A stretch of DNA of 64,000 bases, taken from Cloeon dipterum (lineage: Eukaryota > Arthropoda > Insecta > Ephemeroptera > Baetidae). The notes beneath the pieces were generated by a model, which ran no database searches, had not been told where the DNA came from, and worked only from the letters and a program-made list of their open reading frames with translations. The stretch's first letter is position 1; the number at the start of each line of letters is the position of its first letter. Of this stretch, positions 37,776 through 59,800 are shown piece after piece. The stretch spans positions 37,064,844-37,128,843 of the forward strand of contig NC_088787.1 of assembly GCF_949628265.1 (NCBI RefSeq), written 5' to 3'. Position numbers and translations under genes: made by a program.

Positions 37776-40649
37776 TCATGGTATCATCACTTCAGGGCTT
37801 TGTGAGCACAGGATCATCGAGGTAGAGGGCACTACGAGTTCCTGCAGGTCAGCATTCATGCTGCGTGTTATGCGAGTATTCACTTCTGCGACATCACTCA
37901 TTCGCAAGATTTTTTCTGGGTGCTTTCGGACGTATTTTGCGCACTCGAGGACATAAAGGGAAAAAACAGGCAGAATTTCTAATTGACGAAACAGTGGACG
38001 GCAGGATTCAATTTCTTGGCCTGGTCTACGTTTTCTTCTCTTCTTTGCCATCGTCCTAAATATCCTCTTTTGTGAGACGAGTACGTCACTCAGATGGGTT
38101 GATGCTCCCCAGACAATCAAAGAGTAGAGGATGTGACTCTGAACGTGCGCAAAGTAGACTTGCCGCATAATTTTATCTGTTACTCTATCTTGCATTTTTA
38201 CAAAAAGGAAAGTAGCACTCCGGAGTTTAGCACATACTTGGTCGCACTGTTCCTTCCAGTTCATTGTGTCGGAGAGAATTACTCCGAGTACCTTGCTTTG
38301 GGATGCTACTTCGACCCTTTTTTCACCGATGTACACTTCTGGCTGCAAAATCTTCCTTGTTTGTGCTGTGTGTACTTGAAGAATCTTGGTTTTTTCAGCA
38401 TTCAACCTTAAGCCATTGGCCTTAGCGAATTGGCAAACTTTGTCGTTCACTTCGTTTGTCAGTTGGTTTACGCTTTCGTAGGTTGCTGCTCTGGTGGTTA
38501 TTGACAAGTCATCAGCGTAGAGAGCAAGGCTGCAAGCAACGGATTCCAGTGAAAGATCATTCTCATACATTGTAAAACCAAGAGGTCCAAGCACTGTTCC
38601 CTGAGGAACACCAACAGAGCATATGACGGATTCAGAGTTGACTAGCATATTCGTTCGAGATTTCTCATCAAGAGTACTGAGCTGAACTATTTGTCTGCGA
38701 GAGACTAGGAATGATTCCACCCACATCACAGCCGATTCACCCAATCCGTATTTCCTTAACTTTTGGGCCAAAATTCTGGGCACGAGACATCCGAACGCAT
38801 TGGAATAGTCGTAGAGTAACAAGTTTATTTTTTCCCTCTTTTCCATTGATGAATAGATTCCAGAGACAATGTCGATCAGTGCTGTAGTTGTGCTTTTCCC
38901 CTTCCGAAAGCCATGCTGGTATGAAGATAGTGTCCCGTTCTCCTCAAGGAAGTAATCAAGTCTTAAAAGAAAGCATTTCTCAACCACCTTGGAAACGGAG
39001 GATGTAAGCGCGATCGGCCTGTAACTACTCGCATCAGACTTTTCACCCTTGTTCTTATACACAGGTTTAATGATGGACAGCTTCAATATATCTGGAAAAT
39101 GACCTTCAGTAAAGGAAGCATTAATAATATTACTTATCGGACACGCAACATAGTGGGAAATCTTTTTTAAGACCTCCATAGATATTCCGTCAAACCCAGA
39201 AGACTTCTTTGATGGGAATTTTCTTAAAATCATTAATATTTCGTCTGGCGAAGATAACATTTCATTTAGCGAGAAGTTGCTTTCGCACTGCTCAATAGAC
39301 TCCAGACCCTCTATGATCATATCTTCATTTATGTCAGGAGTAGGTTCAACAAATTTCAGGTTCAAGTAATTAGCGATTGACTTCAAATCATTTCCATGCG
39401 GGCCCTTTTCAATGACGATATCTTTCACACTTGATGTCTTTTCTGGGCGAGAGCAGTTTTCGTTGACAATCTTCCACGCTGCTGCGGATTTATTGTCCGA
39501 TTTGTTAATGAACTCGTCATTCCTCTTCCTGATCTCATCATTAATAAGGTAGCCAACATACGTCTTCAGCTGTTTATACTCGCGTTCAAGCTCTAGTAGG
39601 TTTCCGGATTTTATCAGTTCAGTCTTGGTATTTTTCGCATCTCTCTTCTCTTGCCTCAGTTTTCTTCTCAGCTGTTCTCCTAGCTCACGCAGCTCCATCT
39701 TTCTGTTTTTTGTAAAAGCAGACAGAGATATTTTCTCTTTTTGATTTGCTCTTTTTATCACCTTCTTGAGCGGAAAGGAATATTCAAAGATATTGGACAG
39801 TTTTTCAATGAAAGTTTTACATTTATCATCACAAAGATCTTCTTGGTAGACATTTCTCCAGTCTTCTTCGCCGAGCAGAGAGAGAAACGTATCCCAATTG
39901 TCATCACAGTAGTTTCGAGCAAATCTAAACGAGTCTCGAGATTGCTCAACCGGAACGTCTGGAGCACATAAGACCACCTTGTGATCAGAGAAAACGACGT
40001 CTTGAACGGAGCAGTAGCTGTGACAGTCCATCGAAGTATATATGTGGTCGATCAGTGTGCTGCTGGATCCAGTTACTCTAGTAGGGTTTTCATTGTTAAC
40101 AAGGCGCATTTCATACGAGCTCATACGTTCATGTAGTTTCTTGCTGTTGCTGTCTGGGCTCAGAGCATTGATGTTCAGATCACCGAGCAAAATAATTTCC
40201 CTTCCAGCGGCCGCATTTCTTTCAATCAAGTCATCTAGGTTTTCGAAGAAATTGTCTAGGCATTTATTATTTTTCTCATTGCTGGGACGATACACAGTTA
40301 ATATGCGCAGGTTGAGGTTTTTCACCTTCAGGTCACAGCCTGCCGTCTCAAATTCGGTCTCACATGACTGGGTAGAAATCTTTGTGCATTTCCAGTCGAC
40401 GTTGTTAGATGCCAAAATCATGACTCCTCCTCGGTTACCTTTCTTTCTGCTGAAAGACGATACCAGCTTGTAGCCCTTGATGCTGAAATGTTTTACTTCT
40501 AATGGACAGAGCCAGTGCTCATTCAGTGCGATTATATGTGGCTTGTTGCCACTAAGACTGTTGACGTACTCCTCGAAAAGGGTGAACTTACATGAGGTAG
40601 TGTTGCCTTGAATATTGAGAAGAACTAGTCGCAGTTTTTGAAAATTCAT
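37776..40649 (-). CDS. Intact ORF2: APE endonuclease and reverse transcriptase
   Basis: 957 codons without interruption, ATG to stop, so possibly functional. The endonuclease is in the first ~230 residues: LNIQGNTTS, IIALNEHWL, GNRGGVMIL, YRPSNEKNN, ILLGDLNINAL, SSTLIDHIYT and the final VVFSDHKVV. The reverse transcriptase runs from about residue 480: SSGFDGISMEVLKKI, SYRPIALTSSVSKVVEK, YQHGFRKGKSTTTAL, YDYSNAFGCLV, GVPQGTVLGPLGFTMY and the catalytic LYADDLSI. The C-terminal region has RKRRPGQEIESCRPLFRQ. It copies the element RNA at a nick made by its own endonuclease (family knowledge). Confidence 0.93.
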   Translation of the reverse strand: MNFQKLRLVLLNIQGNTTSCKFTLFEEYVNSLSGNKPHIIALNEHWLCPLEVKHFSIKGYKLVSSFSRKKGNRGGVMILASNNVDWKCTKISTQSCETEFETAGCDLKVKNLNLRILTVYRPSNEKNNKCLDNFFENLDDLIERNAAAGREIILLGDLNINALSPDSNSKKLHERMSSYEMRLVNNENPTRVTGSSSTLIDHIYTSMDCHSYCSVQDVVFSDHKVVLCAPDVPVEQSRDSFRFARNYCDDNWDTFLSLLGEEDWRNVYQEDLCDDKCKTFIEKLSNIFEYSFPLKKVIKRANQKEKISLSAFTKNRKMELRELGEQLRRKLRQEKRDAKNTKTELIKSGNLLELEREYKQLKTYVGYLINDEIRKRNDEFINKSDNKSAAAWKIVNENCSRPEKTSSVKDIVIEKGPHGNDLKSIANYLNLKFVEPTPDINEDMIIEGLESIEQCESNFSLNEMLSSPDEILMILRKFPSKKSSGFDGISMEVLKKISHYVACPISNIINASFTEGHFPDILKLSIIKPVYKNKGEKSDASSYRPIALTSSVSKVVEKCFLLRLDYFLEENGTLSSYQHGFRKGKSTTTALIDIVSGIYSSMEKREKINLLLYDYSNAFGCLVPRILAQKLRKYGLGESAVMWVESFLVSRRQIVQLSTLDEKSRTNMLVNSESVICSVGVPQGTVLGPLGFTMYENDLSLESVACSLALYADDLSITTRAATYESVNQLTNEVNDKVCQFAKANGLRLNAEKTKILQVHTAQTRKILQPEVYIGEKRVEVASQSKVLGVILSDTMNWKEQCDQVCAKLRSATFLFVKMQDRVTDKIMRQVYFAHVQSHILYSLIVWGASTHLSDVLVSQKRIFRTMAKKRRKRRPGQEIESCRPLFRQLEILPVFSLYVLECAKYVRKHPEKILRMSDVAEVNTRITRSMNADLQELVVPSTSMILCSQSPEVMIP

Positions 40650-40654
40650 ATTTT

Positions 40655-42325
40655 ACTTTGGATTGTTAGCAGAAAATCTTTGTTTTGCAGGTTGTTCACA
40701 AACATCTTCATTTTTATTTCTATTATGGCCGTCGTTTTCATTTTCGTCGTCAACATCATCAACGTGGCTCAAGGTTTCTAGGTCTTTGCTGGCTTCTTCA
40801 TGGTGTTGCCGTTTTTTCGCTCCTTACGCTGGGTAATAGTTGGAGGTACAACGTGCGAGGGCACACTGGTGGATCTTGTTCTGCTACATATTCCAGTTGG
40901 CGTCAATTTGTAAAGTCTTTCTTTTACTCCTTCCATCTGCTTCATCAATGCATTAAACTCTTGTGATGCTTTATCTGCGAACTCGTGATTATCATTGTGT
41001 GAGCCGTCAGGCCCTTCCAACTGCTCAGGTGTTTTTACCTGCGTATTGGAAGGATGCCGGTGGGGTGGGAGAGATTGAGATTTAGATGGGGGCAGCTGGG
41101 GTAGGCTACCCCCACCGGCAGAGCCTTCACGATGACCTGTTCTTCCAGTCTCTCTAACCTGTCTCTTCCCATCTGATAACTTCACATCTTTAATTCCACT
41201 TGGTCCAGGAATATCCTTGGTCACAAGGATTTTTAGCCCACTTCCATTCTCTCTCACAGTAGTTGAGGGGTTTGTGGCTCGTAGACCAGATTTTGAGTTC
41301 ATTGCTTCTGCATAAGTTTTTCCAGCACTTACCACTTTTGAAGTGGCGTGCTGGGGGGGAAAATATTTTCCAGATACCACCTTCCCAGGGAGTTGCCTCG
41401 GACAACCCCCAGCAACGCCCTGTGCAACCACTTTTATTTGCTCAGAGTTCATCAGGGGTGAGCCTGTGGCCGCACTTTCTTTGGTGGTACCTGAAACAAA
41501 CCGACGAGACAGTGAATAAATCACAAAAGTTACCTCGATATCAGAGAAAAGGTTCTTCAACACATGCTCTGTGAACCGCCAGTTGATTGAGTCTGGGCTC
41601 GCGCCAAGGCGGGTGATGGCGATTCTCCGTATTCCGGTCTCATTAACTCTTCTGGCTAGACTCTCTAGAGCTGAGACCTCATTTGCATAGAAACAACCTG
41701 GATTTGCGTGCTTTTTATCGGTTGACTTGTTCTTGCTAACGAGGTGCCAAATTTGCCGGCCATCATCAAGTTGCTGTGTGTGAATGTCACCAATTTCTAG
41801 GTTATGATCTGGCGCCGTCAGGCCAAATCTCTTTTTTAGAGAAGCAGCAGCACCTCGCGAATTCTGCAGATTCGCCCCAACAAGGTGAGCATAGCTGTAA
41901 CTTCTGCGTCGGAAATATCTCCTGTCTTAAATTCGAATTTCGCTTTGCCCAGGTAATCAGCAGATTTTCTTCTCATTGAGATAATTTTGTACTCACGCAG
42001 CAAAGCCTTATCTTGCTCAGACCACCTGCCGGACCAATTTGTCTTGGCTGGAACAGAGAGACCGGTTGGCATGGTGGACGTTGAAACAGGCGTGCCTTTA
42101 GCCCGGCTATTCACACGCCTTGAAGAATTCATTGTCTCCACTCTCCAGGAGCGAAAGCTGCTGCACCTGGACATCGCGGGAAGTCTCCAAGAGGCCAACA
42201 ATTTGTAATATAATCTCCTGAGATGGTAGCGCAGCGATAATCCTGGCAGTCATTTCTTCAAACAGCTGCTTTTGGTTAACTTGGAAAGCCCGCCAAAAGT
42301 CAGCTGTTCCTCCCTCAATATCCAT
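40655..42325 (-). pseudogene. ORF1 with macrodomain-like core, several frameshifts
   Basis: The frame starts at ATG 42325 (MDIEGGTADFWRAFQVN). It changes frame near 42110-42200, again in TTGTTGGGGCGAA near 41870, and near 40800. Joined by eye, the middle reads KFEFKTGDISDAEVTAMLTLLG, then NSRGAAASLKKRFG, WHLVSKNKSTDKK, RIAITRLGASPDSINWRF and IEVTFVIYSL. This matches the order of the macrodomain in the ORF1 at 50966-52696, with Lys in the VSK block and Asp before the (I/L/V)-x-W site kept. The C-terminal third is Pro/Ser/Lys-rich, ending in an acidic NEDVCEQPAK segment. The frame changes may be real decay or homopolymer errors, as ORF2 is intact. Confidence 0.62.
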
Positions 42326-47150: not shown

Positions 47151-47916
47151 GCCGCTATTTTTAATTCGTTGAGTGCATTCATCAAGCCCAATTTTATGCT
47201 TCCCTTGGCAGAACTGTACCTTATTAGTGACTCAACCCGTACCCGCTAATTTTATTGCACATTTTAATTAGAGTGCAATAAGGGTTGCAAAAACCCGCAT
47301 TTATAAATGCAGTGCAGCGGTAAAAAACTTTTTAACAAGTTTATTGCAGGCCATGTTTGCGCCTCACAATCAGTTTTAAACAAATTTTTGATAATTATCT
47401 CATGAACTCTACTTATTAAATTGTGAAAGATATATTTTTAAAAATATATATTGGGCAGAAAAGTACAATTTAAAGAAAAAAACTGCACTGCGGAGGAAAT
47501 TTGCGGTTGGAGTAGTCAATATTTTCTTCATGTGCAGAATTTTTCTTTTTTGCGTATAATTTGTTAATTTTAAAATGCAAATAAAAATACTGCAGATATT
47601 AAAATGCATTGAAAATAGAAGAAAAATGTATATCCTTTTTTTGATAACGTGGGTGGGCAATGCAATTAGTTAAAATATCGGATACGAGCGGGTACAGATT
47701 GAGTCACAAGGGCATGGGCATGCCCGGCCAGCAAAAATTGGGCCTGATGAACACACTAGACCTGGACTCGATGTTGAGGGCCCAAGTGCGCCTGCGCACG
47801 CTGTCTAAAAAATTATTTAAAGTATTCTTCTATTTTCAATGCAATGTTTTTATTTGCATTTTAAATTTAACAAATTATACGCTAAAAAGAAAAATATCAG
47901 CACCTGTGGAGGAAAT
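47150..47916. repeat. Mosaic inverted-repeat region
   Basis: Two pairs of inverted segments. TTCATCAAGCCCAATTTTATGC..CAACCCGTACCCGCTAATTTTATT (about 47178-47255) matches the reverse complement of about 47665-47755. The stretch TTTTTCTTTTTTGCGTATAATTTG to TGAAAATAGAAG (about 47538-47625) matches the reverse complement of about 47825-47905. Their order is not that of a simple hairpin, so rearranged copies of a repeat are implied. The right edge meets the retrotransposon tail. Confidence 0.5.
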
Positions 47917-48030
47917 TATTATTATTATTATATTCTTTATTGTCTTTTGGCAAGGTCATACATCAGATTTTGTTACAATTCTAAATATATGCCCCCCAAT
48001 TGCAATGCACACACAAATTACACACAAAAA

Positions 48031-50373
48031 TCATAAATTTTTAACAAATTCCAAGAATTCAACAGAATCGTAAAATTTCTTCAAGTGAAGAAATTCATTC
48101 AAAGCAACAACAAACTTTTCGTATCGCGGCTCATGCCGTAACGAAACTGGCAAAGCATTGTACAACATTGCAGCACTTGAAAATGGATTTTGCTGCGAAA
48201 TCAATAATTTCTGAGGAGCAATATACAATTCAGGCGCGCGGCGCGTTCCATGCCCATGCACGTCCCTGGTCTTTTTAAAGTAGGCGGGGTATTTTTTAAC
48301 AAATTTACATGCCTCGAACAAATAAATTGAAAACACTGGAAGCAGGTTGTACCGCTCAAAAAGTGGTCTCGCAGAACACAGCGGCGTCAAACCCTTCCAG
48401 TACCTCTCGCCCGCCATGGCACGAATCAGCCGCTTCTGGGCCACGAAAACAGTCCGCAGCGCCCCATCGCTTGCTCCCCAGATCACAATACCATATGACA
48501 TAATCGAATTCGCATGAGCATAATAAACATTTAACAAACTTTTTTCATCGACATTCCCCTTCAGGCCATTTAACATCGTCACCGTTGTGTGCAGGCGGCC
48601 ACTAACGTACTGCGCATGGTCATCCCACTTGCAGTCTTGCCGCACGTGGAGCCCCAAAAATTTGGCATGATCTGCACACTGAATTAATTGGCCGGCGAGG
48701 TCTATTTGAGGGGAAACATTCTGCTTTTGCCCGCGGAACTGCACAAGAACCGACTTTGATGCGTTGAGTGTTAAAAAATTAGCTTCGCAAAATTCTTGAA
48801 GCATCTCTGCTGACAACCGGGCGTTTTGATATAATTCTTCGTTAGTTGGGGCGGAAATCAAAGAGGAAGTGTCGTCGGCATAATTCACGGTGAAGCCTAT
48901 CAGAACGTATAACAGCATGTCGCAGACTCCGCCAACAAATAGTGACGGAGACAAAACGCCACCCTGCGGAGTTCCACGCACCACCGAAACCTCCGACGAA
49001 AACACTGTCCTCTCCCACTTGCCGACCCTCTGTGTCATTTTGACCACTTGCGTGCGCCCGGTGAGCGACGATCTCAGCCAGTCAAGCGCAACGCCGCGAA
49101 CGCCATTCAGCTCTAATTTACGCAGCAAAATCGGCACACACACAGTCCCGAAGGCATTTGTCAAATCATAAAATATAGCCAAAATCTTTTGCCGATTCTC
49201 CATCTTTTCATGCAATTTCACAAAAAATTCAAATAATGCAGTTACCGTGCACTTGCCACGGACAAAACCATGCTGACTAATTGGGAGCAAGCCATGCTCC
49301 TCTTGGAAATTAACAAGTCGTATTAGAAAACAATTCTCTAAAATCTTAGAAAATGTTGGCAAGTTGGAAATCGGGCGGTAATTTTTAACATCACGCTTGT
49401 CCCCTTTCTTAAACAAAGGCACAACAACAGCTTTTTTCATCAAATGAGGATAAACGCCAGTTGAAAATGAGCAATTGACTATGTCTGCGAGCGGCGCAGC
49501 AATGTGTTGCGCTACACGCTTTACAAGAAACATGGGAACTTCGTCCCAGCCAGCGGATTTTTTTGGAGGCAAGTGGCGCAGATGATGCAAAATTTCTTGC
49601 GAAGTAACAGGAGACAGAAAGAGCGTTTGAGGCAAAGATTTCATTTGATCTTGTGGCATCTGGAAGTGCGGTGGCAGCGGAACAACAAAGCTCACATTCA
49701 AAGCATTGGCGATATCAATTTTGTCAGTTACATTAACATCATTTATCAACAACTCTGAAATGTCCGGTCTGTCCTTCACCTTGCCGACCGCTTTATTTAT
49801 CAACGACCACGCGGCCGCTGATTTATTCACGGCTGACTCGATGAAGGAGCTGTTTTGCGCGCAAATTTCACGCTGCAATCGCACGTTAAAATCAAATCTC
49901 TTTCGCTTGAACAGCTCCCTGTCAGGGTGCTGCTCAGGAAGAGACCTAACTGCCTTACTTTGCTTTATTAGCTCCCTCCTCGCCTCCTTTACCTCACGCG
50001 ATAACTTCACCTTTTCTCTCTGATTTGCCCGGATCAAAATCTTTTTGAGAGGAAAACACTCTGAAAAAAGACGGTGAAATATCTCCAAGAAATTCTCGTA
50101 TTTCTCATCCACTGAGTCCACGGTGGCAACTTGAATCCAAGTTTGCAACTCTAAGCGGGACGTGAACTCTTCAACGCTCTCATCCGAAAAAATCCGAGCC
50201 TCCATAAATTTATCTAATACTTTTGGCACACCGAGAAGCAAATTGCAAATAACGGTTTCATGATCAGAAAGAATATTAGGCTCAGCGACACATGACAATT
50301 GCTCAAAATCATCTATTTTGGCCAATACAAGATCTATTAATGTGCCTCCAGTTGCACACTTGCGAGTAATCAT
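48031..50373 (-). CDS. ORF2b: end of endonuclease, reverse transcriptase
   Basis: 780 codons. It opens with the last endonuclease motifs (GGTLIDLVLAKIDD and NILSDHETVIC), followed by a helical linker. The reverse transcriptase has KNYRPISNLPTFSKILE, SQHGFVRGKCTVTALFEF, FYDLTNAFGTV, VVRGTPQGGVLSPS, catalytic NYADDTSS and FLGLHVRQDCKWDDH. The C-terminal region has AQKRLIRAMAGERYWKG, ARPLF and a final HLKKFYDSVEFL. Its ATG overlaps the upstream TGA as ATGA, following an A6 run. It is identical in translation to the copy at 54430-56772. ORF2 needs both parts for target-primed reverse transcription. Confidence 0.92.
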   Translation of the reverse strand: MITRKCATGGTLIDLVLAKIDDFEQLSCVAEPNILSDHETVICNLLLGVPKVLDKFMEARIFSDESVEEFTSRLELQTWIQVATVDSVDEKYENFLEIFHRLFSECFPLKKILIRANQREKVKLSREVKEARRELIKQSKAVRSLPEQHPDRELFKRKRFDFNVRLQREICAQNSSFIESAVNKSAAAWSLINKAVGKVKDRPDISELLINDVNVTDKIDIANALNVSFVVPLPPHFQMPQDQMKSLPQTLFLSPVTSQEILHHLRHLPPKKSAGWDEVPMFLVKRVAQHIAAPLADIVNCSFSTGVYPHLMKKAVVVPLFKKGDKRDVKNYRPISNLPTFSKILENCFLIRLVNFQEEHGLLPISQHGFVRGKCTVTALFEFFVKLHEKMENRQKILAIFYDLTNAFGTVCVPILLRKLELNGVRGVALDWLRSSLTGRTQVVKMTQRVGKWERTVFSSEVSVVRGTPQGGVLSPSLFVGGVCDMLLYVLIGFTVNYADDTSSLISAPTNEELYQNARLSAEMLQEFCEANFLTLNASKSVLVQFRGQKQNVSPQIDLAGQLIQCADHAKFLGLHVRQDCKWDDHAQYVSGRLHTTVTMLNGLKGNVDEKSLLNVYYAHANSIMSYGIVIWGASDGALRTVFVAQKRLIRAMAGERYWKGLTPLCSARPLFERYNLLPVFSIYLFEACKFVKKYPAYFKKTRDVHGHGTRRAPELYIAPQKLLISQQNPFSSAAMLYNALPVSLRHEPRYEKFVVALNEFLHLKKFYDSVEFLEFVKNL

Positions 50374-51002
50374 TTTTTATTCAACAGACTCAATCCAAAT
50401 TTGTCGAGTAAACTAATTAATCTCTTTGACTGAGCAGAATCAATAAGCATGTTTATGTTGAAATCACCGCATATAAACCATTTTTTTACTTTAGGCAACT
50501 GGAGGATCTTTTCCAAATTTTGTTCAAGACATGAGAAGAAGCGTGGGAAATCAGAGTTGTTAACTGGATTTGAAGGGCGATATACCAACAAGAAACATAA
50601 TTTTTGACTATTTACATCAAAAGTTATCGCCGCACACTCACAACAAAATTCAAGGCTTACCACCCTGACATTTGCAACATGCAAATCGCGTTTGATCAAA
50701 ATGGCAACTCCACCTCTTTCTCTCTCTCTCCTACCGAAACCAGCAGCCAATTTGTAGTCCAACATTTGTAGACCCTTAACTTCGTTCTCATCTAACCAAG
50801 TCTCACACAAAAGCAATAAACTAGGAGATAGTGTCTCTTTCTGGTTGCGGATAGCGTCTTTGAACAAATTTAGTTTTTTGGCACTTGACAAACCTTGCAC
50901 ATTTAGCAGCCAAAAGGAGAAGTCAAAACTCTTCGCTCTTCGTTCTTCGTGTCTTGCAGAATCGTTTATTGAAAATTTGTTAACGTAGGTGACGAAAAGC
51001 AA
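50370..51002 (-). CDS. ORF2a: APE endonuclease N-terminal part
   Basis: 210 codons with the apurinic endonuclease order: FWLLNVQGLSSAKKL, LLLLCETWL, RRERERGGVAILI, FLLVYRPSNPV and WFICGDFNINML. It ends LLNKK at the AAAAAATGA site. The last catalytic block (SDH) lies in the next frame, so the enzyme is split between two frames. Overlap with ORF1 suggests reinitiation or frameshift for ORF2 expression. A true ATG for ORF2 is not obvious at the start. Confidence 0.88.
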   Translation of the reverse strand: MLFVTYVNKFSINDSARHEERRAKSFDFSFWLLNVQGLSSAKKLNLFKDAIRNQKETLSPSLLLLCETWLDENEVKGLQMLDYKLAAGFGRRERERGGVAILIKRDLHVANVRVVSLEFCCECAAITFDVNSQKLCFLLVYRPSNPVNNSDFPRFFSCLEQNLEKILQLPKVKKWFICGDFNINMLIDSAQSKRLISLLDKFGLSLLNKK

Positions 51003-52696
51003 TCATCATCATCATCACCATCGTCGCCAACATTATTTTCTAACTTCCTCTGACGCCTAACCGACCTGCCGGTGACATTTGGCGTGTCTAGCATGAAAAA
51101 GACGTCATCAGAAGGAGCACAATCTGTCCCATCAGCTTCTGGAGCCGAGGGAGTTAATTGTTCAGAAACGGGCTCACCTGACGAAGAAGGGGTGGCTTGC
51201 GGCGCGCACTGTGGCTGCTCCTTGGTTGAGGGGCCAGGCACCGCCGCCAATCCACCCCAAAACACAGTGACGGCATTTTGGGCGCCGTCACACAGCCCGC
51301 TTCCGGCACTGAGATCAGCAATCGTGCCCTCATCCTTCTGATTGGCAGCGCAGGTAGAGGTATTTTTCCGTGAAGTTGGAAAAGGCAATAGTGAGGCAAA
51401 TGCAGAAAAGATACCAGGTTCAGACGTACCTGTGTCCTTTCGAGCTGTCGCCGCCTCGCCATGGGCGTGCCTCCCTTCTGCCACAGAGGCGCCGGGCAGA
51501 GACGACGACACACTCGAGGCAGAAGTAGCTTTGGTGACCTTTTGGGCGCCACCCTGCCACTCAAGACCATGTAGGTCGTCATCAGCACCACTTTTTAGCT
51601 TCTCAGGCATCAACACGAACATCTGGCTCTCAGCAATTGTTCCATCAAGGGATGAGCATGTAAGAAAGGAGGCGTCAGGCGAGGTCAAAGCAACCTCCAC
51701 AGCCACCGAAGTGACCAACGGAGGTAAATTCAGCTTACCTCTACCCGCTCGAGTGGCCGCCGGCGCGCAGTTGGGTCCGGCCTGCTCCCCTGCCGAGACA
51801 GGAGCGCCGAGCGCAGCCGACTGACCACTCGGAGCGGCAGTCGCTTTGGGGGCCGTACGGGCGCCCCTTTCCCCTCTTCTGGCGCCACCATGGCGGGAGC
51901 GCACCTCACGAGCTCTCTGCGGTGTCTGGAGATAAACAGCGAGGGTAATATCCAGGTCTTTGAACGTCTCCAGCAACCTCTGCTGTGTCCATCGCCAGTG
52001 GACACGGTCAGTTTTTGAAGCGATCCGCACTAGGGCCAACCTCTTGATGCTCTTCTCCTCGCAAAATTCCCTCAGGCTGGATATTGCTTTTGCCAGGTTG
52101 GCCAGGAATACCTCCGGCTGAAAGGCAAATTTGTGAAAGTACCTTTCCTTAGACACCACATTCAGCAGGGTTGTGTCTCCTTTGTGTTGAGGCCGAATGC
52201 ATCCAATTTGGTAGAATTTGTCCTTCATCATGACCGGGCCGTACTCCTCAGCGAAAACTTTGGCGATTCCTTTTGAACGCCTCATGTCCCCTGATACCAC
52301 ATGTGCTTTCCACTTCTCAGCGGCTGTTACCAGGTCGCCGCGGACAATTTCAATTCTGCATTTTCCTCTCGAGTCCTCAAATGCGCTCTTCCGCAGCTGG
52401 AAATACTCTTTTATTAAAGGAGTGAATTCCGTCACCTGCCACTTCGTTGACTTCGTTGGGGAATTTCCATTGTTTGGCGGCCGTGTTAGAGATTTCTCAG
52501 CCCGCACCTGTCTCTTCTCTCCCCTTTCAATTCTCAGCAGCCGATCCTCAACGCTTTTCAAACGTGATAAAAGCTGCCGGCATCGATGGCAATCGAAATT
52601 ATCATCTTTCTCACCGTCCTGGATGCAGGGCGGCTTCCCTTCACTCACAGTCCTGGTCCTGCCCTTCCTGCGTCTATTAAGGTCACTTTTGGTCAT
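50966..52696 (-). CDS. ORF1 with N-terminal coiled coil and macrodomain
   Basis: 576 codons. Residues 36-60 have CHRC and a heptad-like helix (LLSRLKSVEDRLLRIER), probably for self-association. Residues about 113-256 look like a TARG1/OARD1-type macrodomain: CRIEIVRGDLVTAAEKWKAH, then SKGIAKVFAEEYG, LLNVVSKERYFHKF, LREFCEEKSIKRLALVRIAS, KTDRVHW and DITLAVYL. The Lys of the VSKE(R) block (183) and Asp of TDRVxW (230), at the positions of catalytic Lys and Asp in TARG1, are present. The glycine-rich ribose loop is altered (RRSKGIA, RIASKTD). The rest is Ala/Pro/Ser-rich and disordered, with an acidic end. A role in RNP function, ADP-ribose recognition or host ADP-ribosylation is inference. Confidence 0.75.
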   Translation of the reverse strand: MTKSDLNRRRKGRTRTVSEGKPPCIQDGEKDDNFDCHRCRQLLSRLKSVEDRLLRIERGEKRQVRAEKSLTRPPNNGNSPTKSTKWQVTEFTPLIKEYFQLRKSAFEDSRGKCRIEIVRGDLVTAAEKWKAHVVSGDMRRSKGIAKVFAEEYGPVMMKDKFYQIGCIRPQHKGDTTLLNVVSKERYFHKFAFQPEVFLANLAKAISSLREFCEEKSIKRLALVRIASKTDRVHWRWTQQRLLETFKDLDITLAVYLQTPQRAREVRSRHGGARRGERGARTAPKATAAPSGQSAALGAPVSAGEQAGPNCAPAATRAGRGKLNLPPLVTSVAVEVALTSPDASFLTCSSLDGTIAESQMFVLMPEKLKSGADDDLHGLEWQGGAQKVTKATSASSVSSSLPGASVAEGRHAHGEAATARKDTGTSEPGIFSAFASLLPFPTSRKNTSTCAANQKDEGTIADLSAGSGLCDGAQNAVTVFWGGLAAVPGPSTKEQPQCAPQATPSSSGEPVSEQLTPSAPEADGTDCAPSDDVFFMLDTPNVTGRSVRRQRKLENNVGDDGDDDDDCFSSPTLTNFQ

Positions 52697-52736
52697 TTTC
52701 GCTTAGCGAAGACCAACTTTTTGGCGAAAAATCGAG

Positions 52737-53131
52737 AGAGTGTCAAGGAATCGACCAATCATCAGAAGTTTGATGAAATTCAAAGAAAGCCAGACCAAAA
52801 CTATCGATTCTTCGTCAAGGAATCTACCAACCATCTGAAGTTTGATGAAATTCCAGGAAATCCAGACCAAAACTATCCCCAGACCAAAAGACCAAAGATT
52901 TTTCGCTCGTATGAAAGAAAATCGTCAGATTTGGTCAAACATTCCTGGTATTCCATCAATCTTCTAAGGTTCGGTCGGTTATAATAACGGGAATCGATAG
53001 TTTTGGTCAAACATTCTTGGAATTTCATCAATCTTCAAAAGATTGGTCAGTTTTAAGAAATGGAATCGATAGTTTTGATCTGTAATTCTTGGAATTCGAT
53101 CAATCTTCGAAAGATTATTCGATACTATCTC
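52737..53131. repeat. 72-bp satellite between the two retrotransposon copies
   Basis: About 52737-52885 carries monomers on the opposite strand to the main array (GACCAAAACTATCGATTC). At about 52885-52900 (CCAGACCAAAAGACCAAAG) polarity flips, and from there to 53131 monomers run as in the main array (GGAATCGATAGTTTTGGTC). The retrotransposon 5' ends abut both sides. Confidence 0.85.
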
Positions 53132-53159
53132 CTCCTTTCTTACATGCTCATCCCTTGAT

Positions 53160-53837
53160 GGAACAATTGCTGAGAGCCAGATGTTCGTGTTGATGCCTGA
53201 GAAGCTAAAAAGTGGTGCTGATGACGACCTACATAGTCTTGAGTGGCAGGGTGGCGCCCAAAAGGTCACCAAAGCTACTTCTGCCTCGAGTGTGTCGTCG
53301 TCTCTGCCCGGCGCCTCTGTGGCAGAAGGGAGGCACGCCCATGGCGAGGCGGCGACAGCTCGAAAGGACACAGGTACGTCTGAACCTGGTATCTTTTCTG
53401 CATTTGCCTCACTATTGCCTTTTCCAACTTCACGGAAAAATACCTCTACCTGCGCTGCCAATCAGAAGGATGAGGGCATGATTGCTGATCTCAGTGCCGG
53501 AAGCGGGCTGTGTGACGGCGCCCAAAATGCCGTCACTGTGTTTTGGGGTGGATTGGCGGCGGTGCCTGGCCCCTCAACCAAGGAGCAGCCACAGTGCGCG
53601 CCGCAAGCCACCCCTTCTTCGTCAGGTGAGCCCGTTTCTGAACAATTAACTCCCTCGGCTCCAGAAGCTGATGGGACAGATTGTGCTCCTTCTGATGACG
53701 TCTTTTTCATGCTAGACACGCCAAATGTCACCGGCAGGTCGGTTAGGCGTCAGAGGAAGTTAGAAAATAATGTTGGCGACGATGGTGATGATGATGATGA
53801 TTGCTTTTCGTCACCTACGTTAACAAATTTTCAATAA
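53160..53837 (+). CDS. ORF1 C-terminal part of copy B
   Basis: Open frame equal to the C-terminal ~220 residues of the ORF1 at 50966-52696, starting at FVLMPEKLKSGADDDLH and ending at the same acidic NVGDDGDDDDD tail. The coiled coil and macrodomain are missing because of 5' truncation. Residue differences from copy A are Ser for Gly in LHSLEW and Met for Thr in GMIADL. Confidence 0.85.
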   Translation, partial: GTIAESQMFVLMPEKLKSGADDDLHSLEWQGGAQKVTKATSASSVSSSLPGASVAEGRHAHGEAATARKDTGTSEPGIFSAFASLLPFPTSRKNTSTCAANQKDEGMIADLSAGSGLCDGAQNAVTVFWGGLAAVPGPSTKEQPQCAPQATPSSSGEPVSEQLTPSAPEADGTDCAPSDDVFFMLDTPNVTGRSVRRQRKLENNVGDDGDDDDDCFSSPTLTNFQ

Positions 53838-54433
53838 ACGATTCTGCAAGACACGAAGAACGAAGAGCGAAGAGTTTTGACTTCTCCTTTTGGCTGCTAA
53901 ATGTGCAAGGTTTGTCAAGTGCCAAAAAACTAAATTTGTTCAAAGACGCTATCCGCAACCAGAAAGAGACACTATCTCCTAGTTTATTGCTTTTGTGTGA
54001 GACTTGGTTAGATGAGAACGAAGTTAAGGGTCTACAAATGTTGGACTACAAATTGGCTGCTGGTTTCGGTAGGAGAGAGAGAGAAAGAGGTGGAGTTGCC
54101 ATTTTGATCAAACGCGATTTGCATGTTGCAAATGTCAGGGTGGTAAGCCTTGAATTTTGTTGTGAGTGTGCGGCGATAACTTTTGATGTAAATAGTCAAA
54201 AATTATGTTTCTTGTTGGTATATCGCCCTTCAAATCCAGTTAACAACTCTGATTTCCCACGCTTCTTCTCATGTCTTGAACAAAATTTGGAAAAGATCCT
54301 CCAGTTGCCTAAAGTAAAAAAATGGTTTATATGCGGTGATTTCAACATAAACATGCTTATTGATTCTGCTCAGTCAAAGAGATTAATTAGTTTACTCGAC
54401 AAATTTGGATTGAGTCTGTTGAATAAAAAATGA
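53801..54433 (+). CDS. ORF2a endonuclease part of copy B
   Basis: Translation identical to the 210-codon frame at 51002-50370, including the endonuclease motifs and the same stop within AAAAAATGA. It overlaps the end of ORF1 by 37 nt as in copy A. Confidence 0.9.
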   Translation: MLFVTYVNKFSINDSARHEERRAKSFDFSFWLLNVQGLSSAKKLNLFKDAIRNQKETLSPSLLLLCETWLDENEVKGLQMLDYKLAAGFGRRERERGGVAILIKRDLHVANVRVVSLEFCCECAAITFDVNSQKLCFLLVYRPSNPVNNSDFPRFFSCLEQNLEKILQLPKVKKWFICGDFNINMLIDSAQSKRLISLLDKFGLSLLNKK

Positions 54434-56772
54434 TTACTCGCAAGTGTGCAACTGGAGGCACATTAATAGATCTTGTATTGGCCAAAATAGATGATTTTGA
54501 GCAATTGTCATGTGTCGCTGAGCCTAATATTCTTTCTGATCATGAAACCGTTATTTGCAATTTGCTTCTCGGTGTGCCAAAAGTATTAGATAAATTTATG
54601 GAGGCTCGGATTTTTTCGGATGAGAGCGTTGAAGAGTTCACGTCCCGCTTAGAGTTGCAAACTTGGATTCAAGTTGCCACCGTGGACTCAGTGGATGAGA
54701 AATACGAGAATTTCTTGGAGATATTTCACCGTCTTTTTTCAGAGTGTTTTCCTCTCAAAAAGATTTTGATCCGGGCAAATCAGAGAGAAAAGGTGAAGTT
54801 ATCGCGTGAGGTAAAGGAGGCGAGGAGGGAGCTAATAAAGCAAAGTAAGGCAGTTAGGTCTCTTCCTGAGCAGCACCCTGACAGGGAGCTGTTCAAGCGA
54901 AAGAGATTTGATTTTAACGTGCGATTGCAGCGTGAAATTTGCGCGCAAAACAGCTCCTTCATCGAGTCAGCCGTGAATAAATCAGCGGCCGCGTGGTCGT
55001 TGATAAATAAAGCGGTCGGCAAGGTGAAGGACAGACCGGACATTTCAGAGTTGTTGATAAATGATGTTAATGTAACTGACAAAATTGATATCGCCAATGC
55101 TTTGAATGTGAGCTTTGTTGTTCCGCTGCCACCGCACTTCCAGATGCCACAAGATCAAATGAAATCTTTGCCTCAAACGCTCTTTCTGTCTCCTGTTACT
55201 TCGCAAGAAATTTTGCATCATCTGCGCCACTTGCCTCCAAAAAAATCCGCTGGCTGGGACGAAGTTCCCATGTTTCTTGTAAAGCGTGTAGCGCAACACA
55301 TTGCTGCGCCGCTCGCAGACATAGTCAATTGCTCATTTTCAACTGGCGTTTATCCTCATTTGATGAAAAAAGCTGTTGTTGTGCCTTTGTTTAAGAAAGG
55401 GGACAAGCGTGATGTTAAAAATTACCGCCCGATTTCCAACTTGCCAACATTTTCTAAGATTTTAGAGAATTGTTTTCTAATACGACTTGTTAATTTCCAA
55501 GAGGAGCATGGCTTGCTCCCAATTAGTCAGCATGGTTTTGTCCGTGGCAAGTGCACGGTAACTGCATTATTTGAATTTTTTGTGAAATTGCATGAAAAGA
55601 TGGAGAATCGGCAAAAGATTTTGGCTATATTTTATGATTTGACAAATGCCTTCGGGACTGTGTGTGTGCCGATTTTGCTGCGTAAATTAGAGCTGAATGG
55701 CGTTCGCGGCGTTGCGCTTGACTGGCTGAGATCGTCGCTCACCGGGCGCACGCAAGTGGTCAAAATGACACAGAGGGTCGGCAAGTGGGAGAGGACAGTG
55801 TTTTCGTCGGAGGTTTCGGTGGTGCGTGGAACTCCGCAGGGTGGCGTTTTGTCTCCGTCACTATTTGTTGGCGGAGTCTGCGACATGCTGTTATACGTTC
55901 TGATAGGCTTCACCGTGAATTATGCCGACGACACTTCCTCTTTGATTTCCGCCCCAACTAACGAAGAATTATATCAAAACGCCCGGTTGTCAGCAGAGAT
56001 GCTTCAAGAATTTTGCGAAGCTAATTTTTTAACACTCAACGCATCAAAGTCGGTTCTTGTGCAGTTCCGCGGGCAAAAGCAGAATGTTTCCCCTCAAATA
56101 GACCTCGCCGGCCAATTAATTCAGTGTGCAGATCATGCCAAATTTTTGGGGCTCCACGTGCGGCAAGACTGCAAGTGGGATGACCATGCGCAGTACGTTA
56201 GTGGCCGCCTGCACACAACGGTGACGATGTTAAATGGCCTGAAGGGGAATGTCGATGAAAAAAGTTTGTTAAATGTTTATTATGCTCATGCGAATTCGAT
56301 TATGTCATATGGTATTGTGATCTGGGGAGCAAGCGATGGGGCGCTGCGGACTGTTTTCGTGGCCCAGAAGCGGCTGATTCGTGCCATGGCGGGCGAGAGG
56401 TACTGGAAGGGTTTGACGCCGCTGTGTTCTGCGAGACCACTTTTTGAGCGGTACAACCTGCTTCCAGTGTTTTCAATTTATTTGTTCGAGGCATGTAAAT
56501 TTGTTAAAAAATACCCCGCCTACTTTAAAAAGACCAGGGACGTGCATGGGCATGGAACGCGCCGCGCGCCTGAATTGTATATTGCTCCTCAGAAATTATT
56601 GATTTCGCAGCAAAATCCATTTTCAAGTGCTGCAATGTTGTACAATGCTTTGCCAGTTTCGTTACGGCATGAGCCGCGATACGAAAAGTTTGTTGTTGCT
56701 TTGAATGAATTTCTTCACTTGAAGAAATTTTACGATTCTGTTGAATTCTTGGAATTTGTTAAAAATTTATGA
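54430..56772 (+). CDS. ORF2b reverse transcriptase of copy B
   Basis: 780 codons identical in translation to 50373-48031, with catalytic NYADDTSS and all motif blocks. The frame is shifted from the upstream endonuclease part by the same ATGA overlap. Its conservation together with copy A indicates a very recent insertion or duplication. Confidence 0.92.
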   Translation: MITRKCATGGTLIDLVLAKIDDFEQLSCVAEPNILSDHETVICNLLLGVPKVLDKFMEARIFSDESVEEFTSRLELQTWIQVATVDSVDEKYENFLEIFHRLFSECFPLKKILIRANQREKVKLSREVKEARRELIKQSKAVRSLPEQHPDRELFKRKRFDFNVRLQREICAQNSSFIESAVNKSAAAWSLINKAVGKVKDRPDISELLINDVNVTDKIDIANALNVSFVVPLPPHFQMPQDQMKSLPQTLFLSPVTSQEILHHLRHLPPKKSAGWDEVPMFLVKRVAQHIAAPLADIVNCSFSTGVYPHLMKKAVVVPLFKKGDKRDVKNYRPISNLPTFSKILENCFLIRLVNFQEEHGLLPISQHGFVRGKCTVTALFEFFVKLHEKMENRQKILAIFYDLTNAFGTVCVPILLRKLELNGVRGVALDWLRSSLTGRTQVVKMTQRVGKWERTVFSSEVSVVRGTPQGGVLSPSLFVGGVCDMLLYVLIGFTVNYADDTSSLISAPTNEELYQNARLSAEMLQEFCEANFLTLNASKSVLVQFRGQKQNVSPQIDLAGQLIQCADHAKFLGLHVRQDCKWDDHAQYVSGRLHTTVTMLNGLKGNVDEKSLLNVYYAHANSIMSYGIVIWGASDGALRTVFVAQKRLIRAMAGERYWKGLTPLCSARPLFERYNLLPVFSIYLFEACKFVKKYPAYFKKTRDVHGHGTRRAPELYIAPQKLLISQQNPFSSAAMLYNALPVSLRHEPRYEKFVVALNEFLHLKKFYDSVEFLEFVKNL

Positions 56773-56884
56773 TTTTTGTGTGTAATTTGTGTGTGCATTG
56801 CAATTGGGGGGCATATATTTAGAATTGTAACAAAATCTGATGTATGACCTTGCCAAAAGACAATAAAGAATATAATAATAATAA

Positions 56885-59800
56885 TGGAAATCGATAGTTT
56901 TGGTCAAACATTCTTGGAATTCCATCAATCATTGAAAGATTTTTCGCTCGTATGAAAGAAAATCGGTAGATTTGGTTAAACATTCTTGGTATTCCATCAA
57001 TCTTCGAAGGTTTGGTCGTTTCTAATAACGGGAATCGATAGTTTTGGTCAAACATTCTTAAAAGTCCATCAATCTTCAAAAGATTATTCGGTCCTATTAA
57101 AGGAAATCGATAGTTTTGGTCATACATTCTTGGAATTTCATCAATCTTCAAAAGATTAGTCAGTTTTAAGAAAGGGAATCGATAGTTTTGATCTGTAATT
57201 CTTGGAATTCGATCAATCTTCGAAAGATTATTCGGTCCTATGTATGGAAATCGATAGTTTTGGTCTAACATTCTTGGAATTTCATCAATCTTTGAAAGAT
57301 TTTCCGCTCGTATGAAAGAAAATCGTTAGATTTGGTAAAACATTCCTGGTATTCCATCAATCTTCTAAGGTTCGGTCGGTTCTAATAACGGGAATCGATA
57401 GTTTTGGTCAAACATTCTTAAAAGTCCATCAATCTTAGAAATAATATTTGGTCGTATAAATGGAAATCGATAACTTTGGTTAAACATTTTCGGAATTCTA
57501 TCAATCTTCAAAAGATTATTCGGTCCTATTAAAGGAAATCGATAGTTTTGGTCATACTTTCTTGGAATTTCATCAATCTTCAAAAGATTGGTCAGTTTTA
57601 AGAAAGGGAATCGATAGTTTTGATCTGTAATTCTTGGAATTCGATCAATCTTCGAAAGATTATTCGGTCCTATGTATGGAAATCGATAGTTATGGTCAAA
57701 CATTCTTGGAATTCCATCAATCTTTGAAAGATTTTCCGCTCGTATGAAAGAAAATCGTTAGATTTGGTAAAACATTCCTGGTATTCCATCAATCTTCTAA
57801 GGTTCGGTCAGTCATAATAACGGGAATCGATAGTTTTGGTCAATCATTCTTGGACTTCCGTCAATTTTCGAAAGATTGGTTTGTTCTAATAACGGGAATC
57901 GATAGTTTTGGTCAAACATTCTTAGAATTCCATCAATCTTCGTAACATTATTCATTCTTATGAAAGGAAATCGATAACTTTGGTTAAACATTCTCGGAAT
58001 TCGATCAATCTTCAAAAGATTGTTTGGTTATAATCATGGGAACGAAAGTTTTGGTCAAACATTCTTGGAATTTCATCAATCTTCAAAAGATTGGTCAGTT
58101 TTAAGAAATGGAATCGATAGTTTTGATCTGTAATTCTTGGAATTCAATCAATCTTCAAAAGATTATTCGGTCCTATGAATGGAAATCGATAGTTTTGGTC
58201 AAACATTCTTGGAATTCCATCAATCATTGAAAGATTTTTCGCTCGTATGAAAGAAAATCGGTAGATTTGGTCAAACATTCTTGGTATTCCATCAATCTTC
58301 GAAGGTTTGGTCGGTTCTAATAACGGGAATCGATAGTTTTGGTCAAACATTCTTAAAAGTCCATCAATCTTAGAAATATTATTCGGTCGTATAAATGGAA
58401 ATCGATAACTTTGGTTAAACATTTTCGGAATTCTATCAATCTTCAAAAGATTATTCGGTCCTATTAAAGGATATCGATAGTTTTGGTTTTATATCTTGGT
58501 TTTCCATCAATCTTCAAAAGATTATTCGGTCCTATGTAAGGAAATCGATAGTTTTGGTCAAACATTCTTGGAATTTCATCAATCTTCAAAAGATTGGTCA
58601 GTTTTAAGAAATGGAATCGATAGTTTTGATCTGTAATTCTTGGAATTCAATCAATCTTCAAAAGATTATTCGGTCCTATGAATGGAAATCGATAGTTTTG
58701 GTCAAACATTCTTGGAATTCCATCAATCATTGAAAGATTTTTCGCTCGTATGAAAGAAAATCGGTAGATTTGGTCAAACATTCTTGGTATTCCATCAATC
58801 TTCGAAGGTTTGGTCGGTTCTAATAACGGGAATCGATAGTTTTGGTCAAACATTCTTAAAAGTCCATCAATCTTAGAAATATTATTCGGTCGTATAAATG
58901 GAAATCGATAACTTTGGTTAAACATTTTCGGAATTCTATCAATCTTCAAAAGATTATTCGGTCCTATTAAAGGATATCGATAGTTTTGGTTTTATATCTT
59001 GGAATTCGATCAATCTTCGAAAGATTATTCGGTCCTATGTATGGAAATCGATAGTTTTGGTCAAACATTCTTGGAATTCCATCAATCTTTGAAAGATTTT
59101 TCGCTCGTATGAAAGAAAATCGGTAGATTTGGTCAAACATTCTTGGTATTCCATCAATCTTCTAAGGTTCGGTCGGTTCTAATAACGGGAATCGATAGTT
59201 TTGGTCAAACATTCTTAAAAGTCCATCAATCTTAGAAATATTATTCGGTCGTATAAATGGAAATCGATAACTTTGGTTAAACATTTTTGGAATTCTATCA
59301 ATCTTCAAAAGATTATTCGGTCCTATTAAAGGATATCGATAGTTTTGGTTTTATATCTTGGTTTTCCATCAATCTTCAAAAGATTATTCGGTCCTATGTA
59401 AGGAAATCGATAGTTTTGGTCAAACATTCTTGGAATTTCATCAATCTTCAAAAGATTGGTCAGTTTTAAGAAATGGAATCGATAGTTTTGATCTGTAATT
59501 CTTGGAATTCTATCAATCTTCAAAAGATTATTCGGTCCTATGAATGGAAATCGATTGTTTTGGTCAAACATTCTTGGAATTCCATCAATCATTGAAAGAT
59601 TTTTCGCTCGTATGAAAGAAAATCGGTAGATTTGGTCAAACATTCTTGGTATTCCATCAATCTTCTAAGGTTTGGTCGGTTCTAATAACGGGAATCGATA
59701 GTTTTGGTCAAACATTCTTAAAAGTCCATCAATCTTAGAAATATTATTCGGTCGTATAAATGGAAATCGATAACTTTGGTTAAACATTTTCGGAATTCTA

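Follow-up and report, generated by a model that had tools for sequence, protein, structure and literature searches.

The analyzed window, a stretch of 64,000 nucleotides (nt) of Cloeon dipterum (contig NC_088787.1, positions 37,064,844 to 37,128,843), is part of a 190.1-Mb assembly of 10 contigs and contains a non-long-terminal-repeat (non-LTR) retrotransposon, a long interspersed nuclear element (LINE), with a macrodomain similar to that of TARG1 (OARD1, C6orf130) in its first open reading frame (ORF), ORF1. The best explanation of the data as a whole, held with slightly more confidence than doubt, is a LINE with a captured, diversified, and exchanged TARG1-like ORF1 macrodomain that would act as an ADP-ribose eraser. 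Loci of this genome carry L labels and database proteins P labels.

Identification of the macrodomain in ORF1

As claimed by the first-pass annotation, which was made from the DNA letters, an ORF1 of 576 amino acids (aa) is present at 50966-52696, on the minus strand. It starts with an ATG. Residue counts refer to 27 non-identical element rows, from which identical domains, the stop-split L038, and the non-element or uncertain L019, L030, L039, L041, and L042 were excluded; human TARG1 positions were counted on the printed human chain. The parts of ORF1 are as follows.

50966..52696, minus: ORF1, 576 aa
52487..52588, minus: long predicted helix, residues 37-70, adjoining a CxxC motif (CHRC); AlphaFold2 of full ORF1
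51929..52360, minus: TARG1-like macrodomain core, residues 113-256; PDB and profile search, AlphaFold2/Foldseek
52148..52150, minus: codon of Lys183 (human TARG1 Lys84); lysine in all 27 element rows
52007..52009, minus: codon of Asp230 (human TARG1 Asp125); 27 element rows with D (23) or E (4)
50969..51919, minus: low-confidence C-terminal part of ORF1, residues 260-576; predicted local distance difference test (pLDDT) below 50 for all but a few residues

The same annotation had proposed a TARG1/OARD1-like macrodomain in a non-LTR ORF1, and PDB sequence, family-profile, and AlphaFold2/Foldseek evidence agreed on it. When 177,635 PDB sequences were searched, ORF1 residues 102-255 matched human TARG1 (2lgr_A) with an E value of 5.3e-10. 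Six PDB sequences were found at E ≤ 1: five were TARG1/C6orf130 entries, all below 1e-8, and the sixth was a putative sugar binding protein at 0.93. The family profile matched TARG1 in the PDB at 2e-35, with an identity between element domain and TARG1 of about 25%, and TARG1 was also the best Foldseek match of the AlphaFold2 models of element-type sequences. The E values, together with the recurrence in the genome, exclude a chance match.

In the AlphaFold2 model of the full ORF1, which was used for the domain limits only (overall pLDDT 50.2, predicted template modeling score 0.36), the macrodomain was the sole confident globular part. The predicted helix at residues 37-70 likely forms a coiled coil, and residues 260-576 are, judged from this model, probably disordered. 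Pfam matches to RRM, PHD, or esterase domains were not found in the ORF1s of the window, L020, L021, and L026, although divergent domains could escape this search, and two patterns for a CCHC zinc knuckle gave no match in 14 ORF1s. The fold may have been captured as a platform for RNA or DNA binding that replaces the RRM of other ORF1s and has no present ADP-ribose function. Such a scaffold would agree with the single confident globular part, with the missing CCHC motif, with the basic character of the domain in the window family (net charge +11), and with passages of PMC4120745 according to which the RRM, esterase, and CCHC parts of ORF1s are thought to serve transcript binding and chaperoning. 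Against the scaffold stand the invariant lysine and a net charge of the domain of only −1 to +3 in 8 of these 14 ORF1s; it is considered unlikely.

The macrodomain ORF1 as part of a LINE

The element in the window is a non-LTR retrotransposon: it has an APE-type endonuclease and a reverse transcriptase (RT), its copies have a common 3′ end without LTRs, for which no separate search was made, and a 5′-truncated copy is present. The features outside ORF1 are as follows.

47918..52746, minus: complete non-LTR element of about 4.83 kb, delimited by blastn with six further copies
50370..51002, minus: endonuclease part of ORF2; Pfam Exo_endo_phos, 3e-12
48031..50373, minus: RT part of ORF2, in a different frame in the window copy; Pfam RVT_1, 1.7e-21
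53131..56885, plus: second copy, inverted, 5′-truncated within ORF1 behind the macrodomain; 3,755 nt, 100% complementary
37776..42249, minus: family B element with a macrodomain ORF1, the second such element in the window

The element consists of a 50-nt 5′ untranslated region (UTR), ORF1, ORF2, and a 3′ UTR of about 110 nt ending in TAA repeats. Five of the six copies compared support the 5′ end, which is common to L002, L009, L010, and L013 at 52746 and located at 52742 in L011; L012, which is more diverged, aligns only from 52446, within ORF1. The 3′ ends of L009, L010, L011, and L013 are positioned at 47915-47921, and L002 is cut by the end of its own locus. Counted as stop-to-stop frames, the endonuclease frame of ORF2 overlaps the end of ORF1 by 34 nt. 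PDB matches of the RT were LINE-1 ORF2p and, for L023, also R2-type RTs.

In the genome, at least 61 matches to ORF1 were found at E ≤ 1e-3, some of them not element-borne. Drawn from these matches, 36 distinct macrodomain places were examined, the profile for them being built stepwise from the same loci; L029 and L031, places with weak Pfam Macro matches, did not match the family profile, and the genome has D-type places beyond this set. The full frame of 576 aa is open in five places including the window, with 94-100% identity. At 30 of the 36 places, an ORF homologous to endonuclease/RT starts in the same orientation no more than 500 nt away, and at 24 of these 30 the stop-to-stop frames of ORF1 and ORF2 have 7 to 139 nt in common. 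The six places without an adjoining endonuclease/RT are L018, where the next RT is 3.9 kb away, L019, L030, L039, L041, and L042; the downstream sequence read was 1.4 kb only for L030 and about 2.3-2.6 kb for L039, L041, and L042. Further ORF2 sequence, interrupted by stops, is located behind L032.

Single linkage at 60% identity on the 27 element rows was used for family clustering, and ten clusters resulted at this level. Nine come from this genome, and the tenth consists of the database proteins P0002-P0004. The nearest named database proteins were three from Cloeon dipterum, P0005 (79% identity over 97% of the domain query), P0035, and P0125, one of which carries the UniRef name "Macro domain-containing protein." P0125 has a best identity of 82% in the genome, and P0005 and P0035, compared with the fetched frames only, reached 77% and 59%, respectively.

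A host TARG1 gene that stands beside LINE copies by chance, or was carried along once, would explain why the stretch read downstream of some TARG1-like frames (L019, L030, L039, L041, and L042) has no RT-like ORF. Arguments against this are that ORF1 and ORF2 have the same order at 30 of the 36 places and across nine families, that six copies including the window share the 5′ end and five of these also the 3′ end, and that the ORF1 domain is under purifying selection. Shared ends and recurrence contradict a chance neighbor, and this explanation is hardly credible.

Two of these loci contain multi-copy solo TARG1-like frames of 205-282 aa (L041, 2570-3415; L042, 2511-3215) with a C-S-G-L-D loop and the lysine, and no RT-like ORF was found within about 2.5 kb behind them. 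They are read as a host multigene family, possibly a domesticated ORF1. L030 contains at 1303-1887 a separate macrodomain frame of 195 aa with a Pfam Macro score of 33 bits and a very long branch, which groups with a database O-acetyl-ADP-ribose deacetylase and not with animal TARG1s.

Conserved lysine and altered glycine loops

The alignment bore out that the catalytic positions of TARG1 are kept, with K183 corresponding to human K84 and D230 to human D125. The statement that the glycines of the binding loops are changed held for part of them: the window copy has S, A, and K in place of human glycines 41, 121, and 123 and keeps glycine 43. Among the 27 rows, glycine 43 is present in 27, glycine 41 in 5, glycine 121 in 10, and glycine 123 in 11. 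Over the ten cluster representatives, the window residues G143, A145, G153, G165, V181, K183, and A221 are invariant, K183 being the only invariant one among 63 charged positions; the D125 position is D in eight representatives and E in two. The loci excluded from the counts (L019, L030, L039, L041, and L042) all contain the lysine, and their D125 position is D, but E in L019. The D lineage (L032, L033, L035, and L037) keeps a TARG1-like G-A-G-L-D loop, with glycines 43, 121, and 123 and, in L032 and L035, also glycine 41; the loop of the window family is A-S-K-T-D.

According to passages of PMC7050489 and PMC9411070, TARG1, in which Lys84 is a key residue, cleaves ADP-ribose off proteins and off the phosphate ends of nucleic acids, and Lys84 and Asp125 are described as a catalytic dyad, a review printing "Glu125." The same sources report that DarG has the lysine only and SCO6735 neither residue, both being hydrolases, and PMC7050489 mentions that some members of the TARG1/ALC1-like class are readers only. 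Within the retrotransposon ribonucleoprotein (RNP), the ORF1 macrodomain would most probably serve as a hydrolase or a reader of ADP-ribose. The altered glycine loops suggest that the domain of the window family may have another substrate or bind more weakly, in the manner of a reader. Families with TARG1-like loops would be better candidates for a standard hydrolase than the window family.

A reader instead of an eraser would recognize ADP-ribose on PARylated breaks or chromatin, would not hydrolyze it, and would in this way steer or anchor the RNP to integration sites. Altered glycine loops in the window family, combined with a kept K183 and fold, would fit a reader, but a reader has no obvious need for the lysine in every family or for Asp/Glu at the D125 position. 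A reader is regarded as rather unlikely.

Selection on the domain

Ratios of nonsynonymous to synonymous changes (dN/dS) were calculated for 15 pairs by the method of Nei and Gojobori. For the window and L008, dN/dS was 0.11 in the domain and 0.59 outside (synonymous divergence [dS] of the domain, 0.43), for the window and L016 0.13 and 0.54 (dS 1.03), and for L033 and L035 0.16 and 0.54 (dS 1.74, uncertain). These three divergent pairs with a finite domain dS indicate that, on longer time scales, constraint on ORF1 falls on the domain. The solo genes L041 and L042 gave 0.20 in the domain and 0.28 outside, and the recent pair L033 and L037 gave 0.31 and 0.75. Zero changes were found in the domain when the window was compared with L003 and L004; recent copies have too few changes to judge constraint.

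Origin of the domain and exchange between LINE lineages

A phylogeny with TARG1 relatives was calculated from 40 domains, with near-duplicate or partial rows such as L014, L018, L025, L037, L040, and P0004 left out. The element domains stand beside the animal TARG1s and form one group with L039 and the solo frames of L041 and L042 (93/94, just below the firm-branch mark of the program). This gives moderate support for a capture of the domain from an animal TARG1, as judged from the tree. Element domains alone as one clade, which would mean a single capture, were marginally rejected (approximately unbiased test [p-AU], 0.026), and an element clade with L041 and L042 admitted was not rejected (p = 0.44), so that one capture or more than one may have taken place.

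The ORF2 tree, calculated from 18 rows, contained two deep lineages, one with the C-type elements and L035 and the other with the A, B, and D types. L022, which is B-type by its ORF1, grouped in this tree with the A-type L015 and L016 (87/97). In L035, a D-type ORF1 (D clade, 100/99) is followed after about 10 nt by an ORF2 of the first, C-type lineage. L043, on another contig, has an ORF2 that shares 99.25% identity with the L035 ORF2 across the 1,601 nt read. As in L035, a D-type macrodomain, which scores the same versus L033, is located 829 nt from it, the intervening stretch at L043 being unread. A shared history of ORF1 and ORF2 for the D type, with the D-type ORF2s held together, was rejected (p-AU = 1.5e-41). 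One ORF1 type with two deeply split RT lineages means that ORF1 exchange between LINE lineages has occurred for this one ORF1 type (D). A reticulate evolution of other ORF1 types is described in parts of the article by Metcalfe and Casane (PMC4120745).

At L012 (5785-7572), the macrodomain is 72% identical to that of the window with a saturated dS, and the rest of ORF1 is 79% identical with a dS of 0.23. This contrast points to recombination between families, and L007/L012 looks mosaic inside ORF1.

Proposed function

In the proposed mechanism, the ORF1 protein would be composed of a helical, coiled-coil-like segment, the TARG1-like macrodomain, and a disordered tail. The domain would have been taken from an animal TARG1 and then diversified into nine families on two RT lineages, with ORF1 exchange. 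The protein may assemble on the element RNA, where the conserved lysine, aided by Asp/Glu, would remove ADP-ribose from nucleic acid ends or from proteins of the RNP or chromatin. Candidate targets are marks set by host PARPs around the nick of target-primed reverse transcription, and the outcome may be an RNP and an integration intermediate shielded from the host ADP-ribose response. In its widest form, the proposal is a further LINE ORF1 class, a host-TARG1-derived hydrolase that would undo PARP signaling at nicks or on RNA, move as a cassette between unrelated LINEs, and perhaps have been returned to the host in L041 and L042; this form is held tentatively, with somewhat more doubt than belief. 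Passages in PMC9411070/PMC7050489 consider that ADP-ribosylation of RNA may help to recognize hazardous RNAs, for instance, transposon-derived ones, and parts of PMC4441479 report that ZAP/PARP13, a PARP-family protein, restricts human L1, for which its zinc fingers suffice.

Several results weigh against the eraser or the wider proposal. The enzymatic activity is inferred. The Pfam family Macro (PF01661) did not match the window ORF1 at E ≤ 1, so that the finding would seem false if the PDB and profile searches were absent. Among the frames of seven relatives scanned, the Pfam cutoff of 22 bits was passed by the element ORF1 of L032 (23.9 bits) and the non-element frame of L030; L023 stayed below with 18.5 bits, and Macro was not listed for L020, L021, L026, and L028 at E ≤ 0.05. 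In the AlphaFold2 domain model, the loops 46-49, 92-96, which bears the lysine, and 137-139 (numbering of the modeled domain) have pLDDT values below 50, so that the geometry of the active site is not judgeable. The loss of glycines 41, 121, and 123 could abolish ADP-ribose binding in the window family, and conservation of the lysine can have a structural cause. The domain dS was saturated in 7 of the 15 pairs, and the young pair of the window and L005, with few changes, showed no excess constraint on the domain (0.50, and 0.40 outside). Overexpressed PARP1 did not inhibit retrotransposition of human L1, as stated in a part of PMC4441479. Finally, no macrodomain was found in the 1.25 kb upstream of the ORF2 at C2:37245203. 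In this stretch, L044 (C2:37243900-37245150), located before a related ORF2 of 1,046 aa, the open frame, of which 416 aa were seen, consists of a low-complexity tail, which indicates that the macrodomain module is not visible in every related LINE.

Other features of the window

ORF2 is split between endonuclease and RT in the same region of L009 (4195-7165) and the window (48031-51002) and open in other copies; L010 has a single open ORF2 frame of 990 aa with both parts. The split may stem from an assembly error, shared ancestry, or frameshifting. The second copy at 53131-56885 has its own TAA-repeat 3′ end and the same split as the first. It could be a recent duplication, an insertion from a near-identical template, or a fold-back of the assembly. 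Flanking it, at 56819-57703, are open frames of a repeated DQNYRFP-like motif, apparently a satellite. In the family B element, ORF2 (37776-40649) is open and ORF1 is divided between two open frames, which extend from stop to stop over 40781-41926 and 41839-42249.

Comparison with known systems

The element domain resembles TARG1, of the ALC1-like class, in fold, sequence, the positions of Lys84 and Asp125, and tree neighborhood. It differs from TARG1 by being embedded in a retrotransposon ORF1, by changed glycines 41, 121, and 123 in many families, and, in families A-C, by a loop after the lysine segment that has, by eye, about six additional alignment columns. DarG, a bacterial DNA ADP-ribose hydrolase, shares the conserved lysine and was the second-best PDB sequence family (5m31; 9.5e-13 with the profile). 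A passage of PMC9411070 makes it a precedent for activity with the lysine and without the Asp, although DarG belongs to a bacterial toxin-antitoxin setting. The alphavirus nsP3 macrodomain was matched by the profile at 3e-4 to 7e-4, far weaker than TARG1.

The known LINE ORF1 types I-V (classes of Khazina and Weichenrieder), as presented in parts of PMC4120745, contain RRM, CCHC, coiled coil/C-terminal domain (CTD), PHD, or esterase. The ORF1 described here shares with them the position upstream of an APE-RT ORF2 and an exchange between lineages, which that article infers as well, and with type II a helical N-terminal segment. Its globular part is a macrodomain, unlike the RRM/CTD, CCHC, PHD, or esterase of these types, and words that start with "macro" are absent from the main text of PMC4120745. 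A precedent for a foreign enzymatic domain in the ORF1 of insect LINEs is a helicase of viral origin (PMC5563155), albeit one that does not process ADP-ribose; the macro-domain passage seen in PMC8195603 concerns bacterial proteins. In the open-access literature, covered mostly by title and start of the abstract, with preprints, most subscription papers, and Repbase outside this scope, a macrodomain LINE ORF1 was not reported. The assessment of the first-pass annotation that an ADP-ribose-type module is unusual for an ORF1 agrees with the reviewed types and the literature covered. The macrodomain ORF1 is classed here as a further ORF1 class of LINEs.

The role of ORF1 in LINEs besides L1 is an old question, and ADP-ribosylation may either restrain or assist retrotransposition. 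An element that encodes its own relative of a mark-erasing enzyme, with the key lysine strictly kept, makes the question directly testable by a single-residue change. The data document, within one genome, that a host-type enzyme was captured and that ORF1 cassettes passed from one LINE lineage to another. If the proposed function is true, ADP-ribose processing would join the tools of retroelements, as viruses already use macrodomains. That a family of insect jumping genes encodes a relative of this ADP-ribose-removing enzyme in its first protein suggests that the jumping gene uses or undoes a host chemical signal of damage or defense.

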